DNA from: an uncultured Comamonas sp.
GTDB taxonomy: Bacteria; Pseudomonadota; Gammaproteobacteria; Burkholderiales; Burkholderiaceae_C
Assembly (NCBI GenBank): GCA_902175065.1
Contig: CABIIJ010000057.1
Coordinates: 1-64,000 of the forward strand
Direction of reading: 5' to 3'
Length of the DNA stretch: 64,000 bases
A program made the translations under genes and the position numbers. The notes beneath the pieces were generated by a model. It saw only the letters and a program-made list of their open reading frames with translations, ran no database searches and was not told where the DNA came from. Of this stretch, positions 16,496 to 60,818 are shown piece after piece (within the stretch, counting starts at the first letter, position 1; each line of letters opens with the position of its first letter).

Positions 16496-17020
16496 TCACG
16501 GCGTTTTCCCCAGGCACGCCTGCTGGTACACCGGGTCGCTGACCAACACCTGTTCTACCGGCCCTGCCTGGGCTGCAGCTTTGCCCGTGCTGCTGGCCAG
16601 CGCCACCCGTTCGCGGGTCTTGCAATGGAGTACCTGCGGTATTTGCTCCATGCGTTCGGTAGGGTCCTTGATGAAGCGGTAGACGAGGTACTCAACAATC
16701 TTTGCGTCGTCCTGCTGGCTTTGCCGGTAGTGGCCATCGGCCACGTCGAATTGATTTACCGAAGGGGCCAGATAACTCCAGGGTCGGAAAAAATCAGGTT
16801 CCCGGTATTCACGCAATACGACAGAACCCTCTGGGAGCTGGCTGCGCTTGAAGTCGAACCATGTGTAGTCGTAATAAGCCAAATAACCAAACATCCCGCA
16901 ACCTGCGGCGATGGGGATAATCCATTTTGGCAAAAGGTTCTTGCTGAGCTTGCGCAGTAAGTAACCGAATGCCCCGGCACATAAACCAATAATGAATACA
17001 CCGGCCAAGTTCCAAATCAT
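16496..17020 (-). CDS. Hypothetical membrane-anchored protein
   Basis: 174 aa, not recognised. The first 60 residues hold two hydrophobic helices (IWNLAGVFIIGLCAGAFGYLL and WIIPIAAGCGMFGYLAYY). About 115 soluble residues follow, with VVLREYREPDFFRPWSY and a Cys in LHCKTRER and another in YQQACLG that could pair in the periplasm. The ATG at 17020 follows a good site (AGGGAGAG), whereas the track start is a TTG lying upstream of that site. It is separated from the symporter by a terminator, so it likely has its own promoter. Confidence 0.7.
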   Translation of the reverse strand: MIWNLAGVFIIGLCAGAFGYLLRKLSKNLLPKWIIPIAAGCGMFGYLAYYDYTWFDFKRSQLPEGSVVLREYREPDFFRPWSYLAPSVNQFDVADGHYRQSQQDDAKIVEYLVYRFIKDPTERMEQIPQVLHCKTRERVALASSTGKAAAQAGPVEQVLVSDPVYQQACLGKTP

Positions 17021-17036
17021 CTTTTCTCTCCCTGAC

Positions 17037-17064
17037 AAAAAAATGGGCTTTCCGCAGAAAGCCC
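17037..17064 (-). terminator. Intrinsic terminator downstream of the VC_2705-type symporter
   Basis: On the minus strand, GGGCTTTC-TGCG-GAAAGCCC is followed by ATTTTTTT. It lies between the symporter stop and the start of the hypothetical gene. Confidence 0.88.
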
Positions 17065-19111: not shown

Positions 19112-19482
19112 TTTGTCTCCTGATTCATATTAATTTATTGGCTGGCGTCAATCCAGGGCCTCCCCCGGATGACGCCATTTTTTCAAAATTTCAGAAATTG
19201 AAATTTTCTATTGAATAGCATTTATTCGTTCGACACCTCCATTTTTCTGGCGTATTGCTACGCCGCTGACAATTTCATCCGCATAAGGAAGCAGGGCCTC
19301 ATCCGCTCCAGATAGACAAGGCTCCGCACCTGCCATGATCTGGCTGAACCTTACTAAATTCTTACCAAACCCCCGGTTCACCCTAGAGAAATTCAAGCAA
19401 CACGGGAAAATACTGAAAATTGAAAAAATCTATTAAAAACAAACATTTGCACACCTAATAACAGACTTGCAAATTTCATCAA

Positions 19483-19498
19483 TAAGTATTAACACTTA
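19483..19498. promoter_or_regulatory. Operator-like palindrome 1
   Basis: TAAGTATTAACACTTA, palindromic except for one pair, followed by ATTATT. It shares the pattern TAnGTATTAAnACnTA-ATTATT with palindrome 2, whose centre is 124 bp away. Confidence 0.5.
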
Positions 19499-19518
19499 AT
19501 TATTCATGATGAATGGAC

Positions 19519-19548
19519 TTGACAATTATTTTTTCCATGCTCTATTTT
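19519..19548 (+). promoter_or_regulatory. Possible sigma-70 promoter for the CBS/DUF294 gene
   Basis: TTGACA, an 18-bp spacer and TATTTT. The -35 matches the consensus perfectly and the -10 is moderate. It lies between the two palindromes, which would allow control by a factor bound at both. Confidence 0.4.
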
Positions 19549-19603
19549 GAAAAAAATCATCATCCCTGAATCAGAAGTCCATATACACGAATTAATTTTC
19601 ACC

Positions 19604-19625
19604 AATTAGGTATTAATACCTAATT
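19604..19625. promoter_or_regulatory. Operator-like palindrome 2
   Basis: Perfect 22-bp palindrome AATTAGGTATTAATACCTAATT, followed by ATT. It lies 110 bp before the CBS/DUF294 start. Likely a dimeric regulator site; the regulator is unknown. Confidence 0.6.
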
Positions 19626-19734
19626 ATTTGTACTAAAACATCTTGACTTATATTATTTCTATGTTCCAGTTCGAAGGACGTACTCTTGAAAACAAGAAAT
19701 CCCAAGACAGCACCGTGCCAACCTGGAAAATCCG

Positions 19735-21204
19735 ATGTCCACTTCCGCCCTTGCCGCTCCCTGCACCATCACCGACACCACGGGTTTGCTCGGTACCCCC
19801 CTATCGGCCCTGATTGCCCGTGCGCCCTTGAGCTTGCCGCCCGACGCTTCCATCCAGATGGGCGCCCAGGCCATGCGCGATGCCGGTGTGTCCTCGGTGC
19901 TGCTGATGCAAGGGCCACATCTGCACGGCATCGTCACCGACCGCGATTTGCGCAACCGCGTGGTGGCGCAGGGTCTTTCACCCGCCCTGCCGTTGCAGCA
20001 CATTGCCAGCACCGATTTGCTGTGCCTGCCACCCCAGGCCAGTGCGCTGGATGCTCTGGCGCTGATGGCCCAGCACAACATCCACCACGTGCCGGTGGTG
20101 GACAAAGAGCGGGTACTGGGCATCGTCACCCCTCGGGATGTCGGCGAGCGCCAAAGCCCCAGCACCGTGCAATTGACACGCGGTATCCGCAAAGCACCGG
20201 ATATTGCCGCCCTGGCCCAACTGAGCGCCCAGGTGCCTGCCATTCAGCAGGCGCTGGTGCGCGGCGGTGCAGGGGCGCAGGGGGTGGGACGCATCATCAC
20301 TACCGTGACGGATGCCGTGACCATCCGCCTGATTGCCCTGGCCGAAGACACCCTGGGCGGCGCCCCGGTGCCCTGGGTGTGGGTGGCGGCAGGTTCCCAG
20401 GCACGGATGGAGCAAACCGCCCGCACCGACCAGGACAACGCCCTGCTGCTGGACGATGCCTACGACCCCGCAGCGCACGGCGCGTACTTCGAGGCATTGG
20501 CCCGTTTTGTCTGCGATGGGCTGAACGCCTGCGGCTACGTTCACTGCCCCGGCGACATGATGGCGATGAATGGACGGTGGCGTCAGCCCCTGGAACAGTG
20601 GCGGCGCTACTTTCGCAAATGGATCGATCAGCCCGAGCCGATGGCCTTGATGCTCAGTAGCGTATTTTTTGACCTGCGGGCCGTGACCGGCCACACGCCA
20701 CTCCTGACGCAGTTGCGCCAGGAAGAACTGCACCGCGCCCAGCGCAGCCAGTTGTTTTTAGGCCATATGGTGGGCAATGCACTGGCACAGCGCCCGCCGC
20801 TCAATTGGCTGGGCGGCATCCGTGTGCTGCGTGATGCGGCGCACGCCGGCTGTATCGATCTCAAGCACAGCGCCATTGCCCCGGTGGTGGACCTGGCCCG
20901 CATTTACGCCCTGGCTGCGGGCCTGGAAGCGGTCAATACCCAGGAGCGCCTGGCGCAGGCCGGTGCCCTGGTCGGCAGCGAGGTCAGCCAGGATGCGGCC
21001 CAGGATTTAAGCGATGCGCTCAGTTTCATCGCCGCCCAGCGTCTGGCGCACCAGGCCCGCCAGGCCGATATCGGGCAAGCACCGGACAACTACCTGCCGC
21101 TGGCCAGCCTGTCGCACTTCGAGCGCACCCAGCTCAAGCAGGCATTCAAGGTGATTCAGGCACAGCAGGCGGTGCTGGCCAAGCGCTATCCCATCAGCCG
21201 GTAA
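19735..21204 (+). CDS. CBS-domain / DUF294 nucleotidyltransferase-like protein (module A)
   Basis: 489 aa. A CBS pair (residues about 25-150, VSSVLLMQGPHLHGIVTDRDLRNRVV and HHVPVVDKERVLGIVTPRDV) is followed by a DUF294 nucleotidyltransferase-like domain. That domain has VAAGSQARMEQTARTDQDNALLL, equivalent to the GS-x-R-x-E and D-x-D metal motifs of GlnD-like enzymes. The last 150 residues form a DUF294 C-terminal domain. Unlike its paralogue in module B it has no N-terminal cyclic-nucleotide-binding domain. It converges on the exonuclease gene 21217-23340 with a 12-bp gap. Its substrate is unknown; CBS domains suggest adenine-nucleotide sensing. Confidence 0.88.
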   Translation: MSTSALAAPCTITDTTGLLGTPLSALIARAPLSLPPDASIQMGAQAMRDAGVSSVLLMQGPHLHGIVTDRDLRNRVVAQGLSPALPLQHIASTDLLCLPPQASALDALALMAQHNIHHVPVVDKERVLGIVTPRDVGERQSPSTVQLTRGIRKAPDIAALAQLSAQVPAIQQALVRGGAGAQGVGRIITTVTDAVTIRLIALAEDTLGGAPVPWVWVAAGSQARMEQTARTDQDNALLLDDAYDPAAHGAYFEALARFVCDGLNACGYVHCPGDMMAMNGRWRQPLEQWRRYFRKWIDQPEPMALMLSSVFFDLRAVTGHTPLLTQLRQEELHRAQRSQLFLGHMVGNALAQRPPLNWLGGIRVLRDAAHAGCIDLKHSAIAPVVDLARIYALAAGLEAVNTQERLAQAGALVGSEVSQDAAQDLSDALSFIAAQRLAHQARQADIGQAPDNYLPLASLSHFERTQLKQAFKVIQAQQAVLAKRYPISR

Positions 21205-21216
21205 GCAAATCGGCCA

Positions 21217-23340
21217 TCAGTATTTCAAGCGGGCGTAATAGGTTTGCTGCGCCGCTTCGCGGGCCTGGCCCAGGGTGTGGATGCCCATGGCCTGCAATTG
21301 CCCGAGCAGGTGCAGCCAGACCTCGGCGGTGACCATGGCATCGCCCAGCGCGGTGTGCCGCCCCAGCACGGGGATGCCGAAGCGCTCGGCCAGGGCCTCC
21401 AGCCGGTGTGACTCCTGGTGGGGATGCACCACGGCGGACAGCAGCAGGGTGTCCAGCACGGGCTGGCGAAATGCCAGGCCGGTGCGTCGCTCCAGGAGTT
21501 GCAGAAACTTCATGTCGAACGCCGCGTTGTGGGCGACAAGCACGCTGTCTTCGGCAAAGCGGTGGAAGGTGGGCAGCACGGCTTCGATGCGGGGCTGGCC
21601 CGCCACCATGTCCGGCGTAATGCCGTGGATGGGGATGCCCGCCTCCGGGATGTTGCGCCCGGGGTTGACGAGCTGGTCGAAGCTCTCTTGCCCCAGCAGC
21701 TTGCCATTGACGATGCGCACTGCGCCGATCTGCAAGATCTCGTCGCCCCCGGAAGGGTTCAGCCCCGTGGTTTCGGTATCGAACACGGTGTAGCGCAGCG
21801 TGTTCAGGGGGCGCTCGTCCCAGGCGCTGTCGGATTCTTCATGCTGAAACAGGTCGAAGTCGTAAAACTCGGGGCGGCTGGGAATGGGGTGGGCCGTCTC
21901 CTCGGCAGTGTCCTGCACCGGCTCCAGCGGCAGGGCAAAGCGGAAAAACGCCGTATGGCGCACCCGTTCGCGCTCGAACCACATCTGCCCCCGGTGGCGA
22001 GCCACCACTTCGCGCACCGACCAGGTGCTGTGGCCGCTGCCTACGGCCATGGGGTCCATCTCCCAGCTCATGACGGTTTCGGTACTCATGGCATGGCCCG
22101 TCCACACCAGATCGAGGTGGACGCGCTCGCCCGCGCAGGCTTGCAGGCGCAATTGCAGGCTGCGCACGCCAAATTCATCGACCAGGCGCTGGCCCAGGTA
22201 CAGCAGCGCTTGCAGCAGGGAATAGCTGTCCAGGCGCAGCCAGATGTCACCCTGGGCAGGGTCGGCAGGCTCGGTGACGATGGGGCACGGCAGCCGGGTC
22301 TGCAAATGCTGCTGGGCTGCGGCCAGAAACTCCTGGCCCAGCATTTCCTGCAACGGCCAACGCGCTTGCAAGGCGTCTGCCGCCCGGCTGGCCAGGGCGT
22401 CGATGCGCTGGCCGATACGGGCCATTTCCTCCTGCACCACGTGCAGGAACTGTTCGCGCAGGCGCTCCTGCCCTTCTTGCTGGCCCAGTGTGCGCAGGGC
22501 CGTGTGCATGGCGGCCAGGCTGGCGCGGTTGCCTTCGGTCAGGCTGTGCAGGACGCTGTCACGCTCGCGCTCCAGGGCAAAGCTGTGCGTGACGTCTTCC
22601 AGCAGCAGCACGAAGCCGGAAAGCTGCGCCTGCGCTTCGTCCTGGTGGGCCAGCACCGGCGTCATCTGCACGCGCAGCCATTGGCCGGAGAGCGTGTAGG
22701 TGACGAATTGCGTGGCCGCCCGTCCGGCCCCCCGTGCCAGGCGCTGGCGGATGGTGTGCAGGGCGTGGTGCATCAGCCCGCGATCCAGCAGGCCGTAGAC
22801 GGAGCGGCCAATCCCCACCACGCCGCCATGCTGGGCCGCACCCAGCGCCTTGCGGGCCAGGTGGTTGTACAGAAGGATGCGGCCATCCAGGTTGCACACC
22901 AGCACGCACTGCTCCAACTCGGCAATCAGGGCAGCCAGCCGGTCTTTTTCCTGCTGCACGCGGGCGCTGGCCTGCTGCACCTGGCAGGCTATGTCACGGC
23001 GCAGGCTGTCGCGCTGAACCGCCAGGGTCTGCACCTCCTGCGCCAGCGCCTGGGCGACGCGGCTGCGGGCGTGCAGGGCGGGCGCTTGCTCCATGGTGCA
23101 GGCCACGCGCACCTGTTCGGCCAGGCGGGCCAGTTCGCGGCGAGGGCGCTCCACCAGCCGCTGCCAGGCGGCTACGGCAGCGGCAGTGCCTGCCACGGCT
23201 ACGCCGGCCAGCAGCACGATCCGGAGCGGCAAGGGCAGGGTCTGCGCCCCATGCCACAACAGGCCCGTACCCAGCAGTACCAGGGCCACCAGGCTGGCTG
23301 CGCCTGCCACCACTTTCCAGAATCCAACCTGTGCCCGCAT
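21217..23340 (-). CDS. Membrane PAS/pseudokinase protein fused to a DnaQ-type 3'-5' exonuclease (module A)
   Basis: 707 aa. Two N-terminal membrane helices (AGAASLVALVLLGTGLLW and IVLLAGVAVAGTAAAVAAW) precede a coiled coil and a PAS domain (VLVCNLDGRILLYNHLARKALG). A kinase-like region follows in which the phospho-acceptor His (position of HELRTP) is replaced by SLTEGNRASLA and the ATPase G-boxes are absent. The C-terminal 190 residues are a complete DEDDh exonuclease: VFDTETTGL, VAHNAAFDMKF and RHTALGDAMVTAEVW. It looks like a sensor that controls a nuclease or phosphodiesterase at the membrane. The substrate is unknown. Confidence 0.87.
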   Translation of the reverse strand: MRAQVGFWKVVAGAASLVALVLLGTGLLWHGAQTLPLPLRIVLLAGVAVAGTAAAVAAWQRLVERPRRELARLAEQVRVACTMEQAPALHARSRVAQALAQEVQTLAVQRDSLRRDIACQVQQASARVQQEKDRLAALIAELEQCVLVCNLDGRILLYNHLARKALGAAQHGGVVGIGRSVYGLLDRGLMHHALHTIRQRLARGAGRAATQFVTYTLSGQWLRVQMTPVLAHQDEAQAQLSGFVLLLEDVTHSFALERERDSVLHSLTEGNRASLAAMHTALRTLGQQEGQERLREQFLHVVQEEMARIGQRIDALASRAADALQARWPLQEMLGQEFLAAAQQHLQTRLPCPIVTEPADPAQGDIWLRLDSYSLLQALLYLGQRLVDEFGVRSLQLRLQACAGERVHLDLVWTGHAMSTETVMSWEMDPMAVGSGHSTWSVREVVARHRGQMWFERERVRHTAFFRFALPLEPVQDTAEETAHPIPSRPEFYDFDLFQHEESDSAWDERPLNTLRYTVFDTETTGLNPSGGDEILQIGAVRIVNGKLLGQESFDQLVNPGRNIPEAGIPIHGITPDMVAGQPRIEAVLPTFHRFAEDSVLVAHNAAFDMKFLQLLERRTGLAFRQPVLDTLLLSAVVHPHQESHRLEALAERFGIPVLGRHTALGDAMVTAEVWLHLLGQLQAMGIHTLGQAREAAQQTYYARLKY

Positions 23341-57963: not shown

Positions 57964-59939
57964 GCCTGCGGCTCCGTTTCCTGCGTTGCTTTCGCTGCGG
58001 CGGCAAAGCCCTTGAAGCCGCCTTTTTTCAGGTGAATCATCAGCAGCGAAATCGCCGCCGGGGTCACCCCGGAAATGCGCGAGGCTTGCCCCAGGGTTTC
58101 AGGCCGGTGTTTCTGCAATTTCTGCCGCACCTCGATCGACAGCGCCGCCACCTGCATGTAATCCAGATCGGCGGGCAATTTCAGGCTTTCATAGTGCGCG
58201 GCGCGTTGCACTTCTTCCTTCTGGCGGTCGATGTAGCCGGAATACTTGGCGGCAATTTCCACCTGCTCGACCACGGCATCATGGACATCGCCCAAGGTTT
58301 CACGTGAAACATCGGCGCTGGCGTACTTCCCGCCATCCATCCCCAGCAGGCTGGGGTAATCCACCCCGGGGCGGCGCAGCAGGTCGAACAGGTTGTATTC
58401 GTGGTCGATGCCCTTGCCCAGCACCCGCTCCGCTTCACTCTGCGGCAGGATGCGCGGGTTTACCCAGGTGGCTTTCAGCCGCTCTGTTTCACGTGAAACC
58501 GCATCGCGCTTGCGGTTGAACACATCCCACTGCGCATCATCGACCACGCCCAGCTCACGCCCCACTTCGGTCAGGCGCATATCGGCGTTGTCCTCGCGCA
58601 GTTGCAGGCGGAACTCTGCCCGGCTGGTGAACATGCGGTAAGGTTCGGTCACGCCTTTGGTGATCAGGTCGTCGATCAGTACGCCCAGGTAGGCTTCATC
58701 GCGGCGCGGCAGCCACGGCCCCTGGCCGCGCACTTGCAGCCCGGCGTTGATTCCGGCAAACAGGCCTTGCGCCGCCGCTTCTTCGTAACCCGTGGTGCCG
58801 TTGATCTGTCCGGCAAAAAACAGCCCTTGAATCTGGCGCGTTTCAAAACTGCTTTTCAGGGCACGCGGGTCAAAGTAGTCGTATTCAATCGCGTAGCCGG
58901 GCCGTAGGATGTGGGCGTTCTCCAGCCCTTTCATCGAACGCACCAGCGCGTACTGGATATCGAACGGCAGGCTGGTCGAAATGCCGTTGGGGTAGTACTC
59001 GTGGGTGGTCAGGCCCTCGGGTTCCAAGAAGATCTGGTGGCTGTCCTTGTCGGCAAAGCGGTTGATCTTGTCTTCCACGCTGGGGCAATAGCGCGGCCCG
59101 ACACCCTCGATCTTGCCGGTGAACATGGGGCTACGGTCAAAGCCGCTGCGGATGATGTCGTGCGTGCGCTGGTTGGTATGCGTGACCCAGCAAGGCACTT
59201 GCCGGGGATGCAGGCTGGCGTGGCCCCGGTAGCTGAATACCGGCAGCACCCCTTCATTCACGCCGCCGGGCATCCCGTCGCCGGGCTGTTCGGTGCACTG
59301 GCTGAAGTCGATGCTGCGCCCGTCAATGCGCGGCGGCGTGCCGGTTTTCAAACGGCCCTGGGGCAATTGCAGCTCCTTCAAGCGGGCCGACAAACTCATC
59401 GACGGCGGATCGCCCGCCCGGCCCCCGGCATGGTTGCGCAGACCGACGTGGATTTTTCCATCCAGGAAGGTCCCCACCGTCAGCACCACGGCCCGGGCGC
59501 GGAACTGGATGCCGATCTGCGTCACGGCACCGACGACACGCTCGCCCTCGACCATCAAATCGTCCACCGCCTGCTGGAACAGCCACAGGTTGGGCTGGTT
59601 CTCCAGCGTGTGGCGAATCGCCGCCTTGTACAGAATCCGGTCGGCCTGGGCACGGGTGGCCCGCACGGCCGGGCCTTTGGAGCTGTTCAAAATGCGGAAC
59701 TGAATCCCCGCCTGGTCGGTGGCCAGGGCCATGGCGCCGCCCAGGGCATCGACCTCCCTGACCAAGTGGCCTTTGCCAATTCCCCCGATCGAGGGGTTGC
59801 AGCTCATCTGCCCGAGGGTTTCGATATTGTGGGTCAGCAACAGGGTTTTACAGCCCATGCGGGCAGCGGCCAGGGCGGCCTCGGTGCCAGCGTGGCCACC
59901 ACCGACCACGATGACGTCAAATTCTTGGGGGTACAGCAT
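57960..59939 (-). CDS. mnmG: tRNA uridine-34 carboxymethylaminomethyl modification enzyme MnmG (GidA)
   Basis: 659 aa FAD protein. N-terminal [44 protein letters not shown], and the C-terminal MnmE-binding domain ending [20 protein letters not shown]. With MnmE it makes (c)mnm5-U34. First gene of the rsmG-parAB unit. Two perfect parS sites lie within it. I looked for an origin in the 209 bp upstream and saw no DnaA-box cluster. Confidence 0.97.
58297..58310. promoter_or_regulatory. parS: parS site inside mnmG
   Basis: GTTTCACGTGAAAC, perfect 14-bp palindrome matching the bacterial chromosomal parS consensus. Confidence 0.93.
58486..58499. promoter_or_regulatory. parS: parS site inside mnmG
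   Basis: Second perfect GTTTCACGTGAAAC, 189 bp from the first. Confidence 0.93.
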
Positions 59940-60788: not shown

Positions 60789-60818
60789 AAAAAAAGGTTC
60801 CACGTGGAACCTTTTTTT
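60789..60818. terminator. Bidirectional terminator with a parS-like core
   Basis: Perfect palindrome AAAAAAAGGTTCC-ACGT-GGAACCTTTTTTT between the convergent GST and chemoreceptor genes. Its central GTTCCACGTGGAAC is two bases from the parS consensus. Confidence 0.9.

Follow-up and report, generated by a model that had tools for sequence, protein, structure and literature searches.

Two similar palindromes lie between a symporter operon and a divergently transcribed gene. Which of the two units do they serve, and does their function depend on there being a pair? The window, i.e. the whole stretch of 64,000 nucleotides that was analysed, belongs to the genome of a Comamonas close to C. denitrificans (G000). 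Both palindromes are located in an intergenic region of 623 bp (19112-19734), whose G + C content is 37% versus 64% for the window. This region separates the gene for a DUF4212 small symporter subunit (TIGR03647, 18848-19111, minus strand) from that for a CBS-DUF294-DUF294_C protein, a putative nucleotidyltransferase (19735-21204, plus strand); both were assigned by family or domain matches. On the minus strand, the DUF4212 gene is followed by a gene matching the VC_2705 family of sodium:solute symporters (TIGR03648, 17102-18844) and by one for a small conserved protein (16496-17038), which has no Pfam match and holds its place in the gene order as in relatives. A 707-aa protein is encoded at 21217-23340, convergent with CBS-DUF294 and retained in relatives; its long N-terminal part has no Pfam match, resembles a membrane-anchored sensor and is fused to a DnaQ-type exonuclease. 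Elsewhere in the window, at 58296-58311, 58485-58500 and 60796-60811, three near-identical palindromes were seen (GTTTCACGTGAAAC twice and GTTCCACGTGGAAC once), which we take to be parS-like, suggesting a chromosome-partition (ParB) region.

Palindrome 1, TAAGTATTAACACTTA, is found at 19483-19498 and has the layout TAAGTAT-TA-ACACTTA, with one broken pair. Palindrome 2, the tandem copy, has a perfect core, TAGGTATTAATACCTA, at 19607-19622 (TAGGTAT-TA-ATACCTA), and extends to a perfect palindrome of 22 bp, AATTAGGTATTAATACCTAATT (19604-19625). The two are identical at 13 of 16 positions and are 124 bp apart from centre to centre, about 12 helical turns. To assess chance, the intergenic region was shuffled 3000 times with its dinucleotide composition kept, a palindrome being defined by 8-bp arms with at most one break. 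Single palindromes of such length were not particularly rare in this AT-rich region (0.38 expected per shuffle), two palindromes were present in 5.9% of the shuffles and a perfect one (8-bp arms) in 1.6%. A pair alike at 13 or more of 16 positions was never obtained (0/3000), so that the two palindromes of one pattern, 124 bp apart, described in the original prediction are indeed present and exceed chance.

In the whole genome, the perfect copy was the sole match to the palindrome consensus at up to two mismatches, and at one mismatch the present genome was the sole match among 401 sampled genomes of the family. At three mismatches the genome-wide counts were not above the level of the reversed control, and a genome-wide palindrome regulon was rejected because these counts did not clearly exceed the control in four genomes. 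A site in another Comamonas (L088, TACGTATTAATACCTA), which has a LuxR-type gene within a few hundred bp, was discarded as compatible with chance. Searching the intergenic region against plasmids gave no match, and the palindrome sequence was not found in the literature searched.

The palindromes are part of a longer direct repeat. Aligned without gaps, the regions starting at 19483 and 19607 showed 49 identities over 73 positions, defining unit A at 19483-19555 (palindrome, spacer, TTGACA and downstream sequence) and unit B at 19607-19679, both on the plus strand and reading toward CBS-DUF294. The 57-nt flanks after the palindromes are by themselves identical at 36 of 57 positions, a value reached in 0 of 5000 dinucleotide shuffles. 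Only 24 of 129,795 non-overlapping 57-nt pairs in the region reached 36 identities, and among the 20 of these 24 that were listed, all were at the 124-bp offset. In the first module, the palindrome centre lies 28.5 bp before the -35 start of a promoter-like match, TTGACA-18-TATTTT (19519-19548, plus strand), which faces CBS-DUF294. The second module has a -35-like hexamer, TTGACT (19643-19648, plus strand), likewise 28.5 bp from its palindrome centre, and no good -10 was found at 16–18 bp from this hexamer. Taken alone, the TTGACA/TATTTT pattern is at chance level (2 found versus 2.0 expected from shuffles). The promoter match predicted between the palindromes exists, but a pair that brackets one promoter is not supported; each palindrome has its own TTGAC within the 73-bp repeat. 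A conserved short upstream peptide in both repeat units was also considered and was rejected, as it is not kept in relatives.

The divergent arrangement of symporter operon and CBS-DUF294 is kept in three of 53 Comamonas genomes: the present one, C. denitrificans (G009, identical in sequence over this region to C. denitrificans L006) and a more distant Comamonas (G039). C. denitrificans contains a single palindrome, TAGGTATTAATACTTA, with one mismatch, and the second relative a single one, TAGGTATTAACCACAT, in which only the left arm is preserved and the right arm is degenerate; in both, TTGACA is found 29 bp from the centre. Conservation in related intergenic regions, on which the original prediction had been made to depend, was thus observed. 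The combination of a palindrome with TTGACA/T at 28.5–29 bp is present in all four modules of the three species, while most of the intergenic sequence has diverged. The second palindrome copy is absent from both relatives, and no paired sites at conserved phasing were seen in them; a pair is therefore not required. In a three-way alignment their single palindromes fall on the first unit (the 19483 copy), which by this alignment makes palindrome 1 the ancestral copy, and the second unit with palindrome 2 is therefore probably a later, lineage-specific duplicate.

Genome G016 encodes a CBS-DUF294 protein that is 93% identical, but has neither this symporter operon nor the two palindromes next to the gene; the retained sequence starts immediately ahead of the second unit's TTGACT. 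Here either the palindromes are dispensable for CBS-DUF294, or their role was lost together with the symporter. In this genome (L170) the operon has apparently been deleted, so that its esterase side now abuts the TTGACT just upstream of CBS-DUF294; a different DUF4212 symporter, adjoining actP, is also carried.

Our preferred explanation, to which we give a probability of roughly 0.5, is a tandemly duplicated operator-promoter module that would activate CBS-DUF294 via a LuxR/NarL-type regulator. In such a module, a palindromic operator of about 16 bp would be followed by TTGAC 28.5 bp on (centre to -35 start), in two copies toward CBS-DUF294. If the TATTTT at 19543 is the -10 element, the operator centre of module 1 would lie near -64.5, as is usual for class I activators. 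The TAAGTAT/TAGGTAT-TA-mirror layout would fit a dimeric response regulator of the LuxR/NarL type, which may activate CBS-DUF294 when the neighbouring organic-acid symporters are in use. The palindromes are best read as putative activator sites for CBS-DUF294 that possibly share a regulator with the symporter. In favour of this reading are the palindrome pair beyond chance, the direct repeat, the recurrent spacing to TTGACA/T in three species and the family-wide symporter box of the same layout. Against it count the lack of a recognisable -10 in module 2, the chance-level promoter match, the degenerate right arm in G039, the absence of further outstanding sites in the genome and the retention of CBS-DUF294 without palindromes in G016. 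The likely picture is a modest one: a conserved putative operator and a CBS-DUF294 promoter that were duplicated in this lineage, with an activator possibly of the LuxR type. As regulatory sites of bacteria go, this kind is ordinary. The sequences show the palindromes, the repeat, the fixed spacing and the conservation in two relatives; protein binding, activation, the regulator class and co-regulation of the symporter via its own box are what we infer from them.

The assignment to the LuxR/NarL type derives from the half-sites. Together with the boxes found upstream of symporter genes (see below), the palindromes fit a common symmetric half-site, YARGKRN, in a 7-2-7 layout, i.e. two mirrored 7-bp half-sites around a 2-bp centre as in LuxR/NarL-type sites, into which many other dimeric regulators would fit too. 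When symporter boxes of other genera were condensed into a symmetric half-site consensus, YARGKRNNNNYMCYTR, nothing in the region matched it apart from the two palindromes, and 0 of 3000 shuffles had two matches; this consensus was assembled after the palindromes were already known, and agreement between the family box and the palindrome is good for just one of the arms. Sites of NarL/NarP have the same 7-2-7 layout with TACYNMT heptamers; the half-site spacing is identical to that of the palindromes, whereas the heptamer sequence does not match. Nine GerE proteins scored over the cut-off in the present genome.

A dimeric regulator from a different class (TetR, MarR or GntR type), repressing or activating a small number of targets, would agree with the perfect 22-bp palindrome and with the uniqueness of the sites in the genome. 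We nevertheless consider this unlikely, as a centre some 29 bp upstream of the -35 is unusual for a simple repressor, and the genes kept around the operon among relatives encode a transporter, an esterase, CBS-DUF294 and an exonuclease.

The closest known system is CrbS/CrbR (MxtR/ErdR) of Pseudomonas and Vibrio. Its ACTU motif is an imperfect inverted repeat that, like the palindromes, can be read as a pair of 7-bp half-sites around 2 central bp, and ACTU sites are activator sites upstream of sigma-70 promoters of symporter and CBS-nucleotidyltransferase genes, a gene set comparable to that found here (PMC5715377, PMC8402216). In P. fluorescens the CrbR ACTU repeat activates actP and a cAMP-binding (cNMP)/CBS/nucleotidyltransferase gene (PMC5715377), and in P. 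putida ErdR binds the corresponding PP_0354 promoter (PMC8402216, PMC9927547). In Arsukibacterium (L016), an SSF-PAS-kinase-receiver hybrid kinase and a LuxR-type regulator are encoded divergently to the DUF4212 operon, and the DUF4212 upstream regions of this and several further Gammaproteobacteria contain the ACTU-like TTCGACTAAAGTCGGG or a similar sequence. The present genome encodes a CrbR-like response regulator (contig C65, 50627-51238) that shares 48% identity with its CrbR-like counterpart in an Arsukibacterium. Binding of this regulator to the palindromes would be in line with the shared 7-2-7 layout, with its presence in G000, G039 and G016 and with the targeting of this gene set by CrbR in Gammaproteobacteria, but it appears improbable on several grounds. 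The half-sites differ (TAnGACT for ACTU, TARGTAT for the palindromes); the ACTU repeat TAnGACT-nn-AGTCnTA had no match within three mismatches in the intergenic region, the palindromes being at four. At P. fluorescens acs the ACTU repeat spans -52 to -36, versus a palindrome near -64.5 here. Moreover, the protein does not track the palindrome: the 48% homologue occurs in G000, G039 and G016, while the best hit in C. denitrificans reaches 25% although that species has the site, and in G016 the regulator occurs in the absence of the palindrome. The hybrid kinase neighbouring the regulator is without the CrbS symporter domain and is located beside a DctA-like gene. A CrbS with a fused SLC5 symporter domain was not found in the present genome, which has five SSF proteins in open frames of 507–727 aa; a CrbS-like query matched only from residue 627, its PAS/kinase part. 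Membership of the palindromes in the CrbR regulon is not supported, and is not claimed because the homologue is missing from the palindrome-bearing C. denitrificans. A set of genes for a CrbR-like regulator and a hybrid kinase without symporter domain, beside a DctA-like transporter gene (DctA as judged by eye), was seen at L224:5909-9269 and is absent from C. denitrificans.

Equally improbable in our view is the lack of any regulatory role, with the repeat being a neutral tandem duplication in AT-rich DNA or the palindrome a 5' leader hairpin of the module 1 transcript. The 37% G + C content, the fact that single palindromes are not rare in the region and the inclusion of module 2 in any transcript initiated at module 1 would suit it, but AATARGTATTAA and its distance to TTGACA are conserved in the three species amid diverged sequence.

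The symporter operon has elements of its own, 70–260 bp from the palindromes and on the minus strand. Upstream of the operon lies a conserved element, GGTAAGAATTTAGTAAG, at 19350-19366, which contains an 11-bp-spaced GTAAG direct repeat, is kept in C. denitrificans and G039 and to which GTAAGnnTnnCGnAAG in other genera is related. At 19401-19416 a degenerate symporter box, TCAGTATTTTCCCGTG, matches 11 of the 14 positions of a Comamonadaceae-wide box, TAGGKRTTTNCCCTTG, for which we know of no published regulator. Across Comamonadaceae this box was present upstream of DUF4212 in 14 of 27 loci at 12/14 or better, versus 0.13 in shuffles, a count that is not wholly independent, as the box was first spotted in a few of the same loci. 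Its distance to DUF4212 is some 130–360 bp, and a GTAAG element often follows it directly; one such symporter box reads TAGGTGTTTTCCCTTG. Matches were complete (14/14) in seven other genomes, and the box is degenerate in the Comamonas trio. Loci with the box upstream of DUF4212 are L140, L141, L144, L158, L163, L164 and L167. With at most one mismatch, 27 places were found in 12 whole genomes, versus 4 for the reversed control. Some genes for substrate-binding proteins likewise have the box nearby. The three genomes G000, G009 and G016 share a related conserved sequence, TARGTATTAACCCTTG (L185:1082, L184:1501, L176:270), which, where the locus extends that far, is upstream of a gene for a LivK-like substrate-binding protein (LivK by sequence reading).

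The family-wide box shares with the palindromes the 7-2-7 layout, a left half (TAGGTRT) equal to the palindrome half-site and the position upstream of the same symporter operon. In contrast to the palindromes it is asymmetric (right half CCCTTG) and faces the symporter instead of CBS-DUF294. Other Comamonadaceae with the symporter operon have neither the palindrome nor a divergent CBS-DUF294. Control of the symporter operon by the palindromes themselves, as originally proposed, was thus not borne out, since the operon has its own elements and the palindrome is missing where the divergent CBS-DUF294 is missing. Control of both units by one LuxR-type protein, acting via separate boxes, is possible, given the agreement of the palindrome half-site with the box of the family. 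The remaining part of the original prediction, looped control of both units by paired operators, here taken as joint repression or switching, could draw on two similar sites about 12 helical turns apart between divergent genes and must be called very unlikely: a single site is present in each of the two relatives in which the region is preserved, the pair belongs to a longer tandem repeat, the symporter elements are nearer to the start of that operon, and in other genera the operon is not preceded by the palindrome.

Tentatively, the preferred module could be placed in a wider setting, which we regard as conceivable but doubtful: an unnamed LuxR-type regulator may have replaced CrbS/CrbR at the VC_2705-type symporters of Comamonadaceae, acting at the family-wide box, and a symmetric form of that box, later duplicated, may have come to lie before the divergent CBS-DUF294 in the group of C. 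denitrificans. The palindromes provide short DNA baits. The finding points to how the CBS-DUF294 nucleotidyltransferase is controlled, a conserved companion of organic-acid symporters about which little is understood, and the family-wide symporter box may mark a regulon beyond the range known for CrbS/CrbR.
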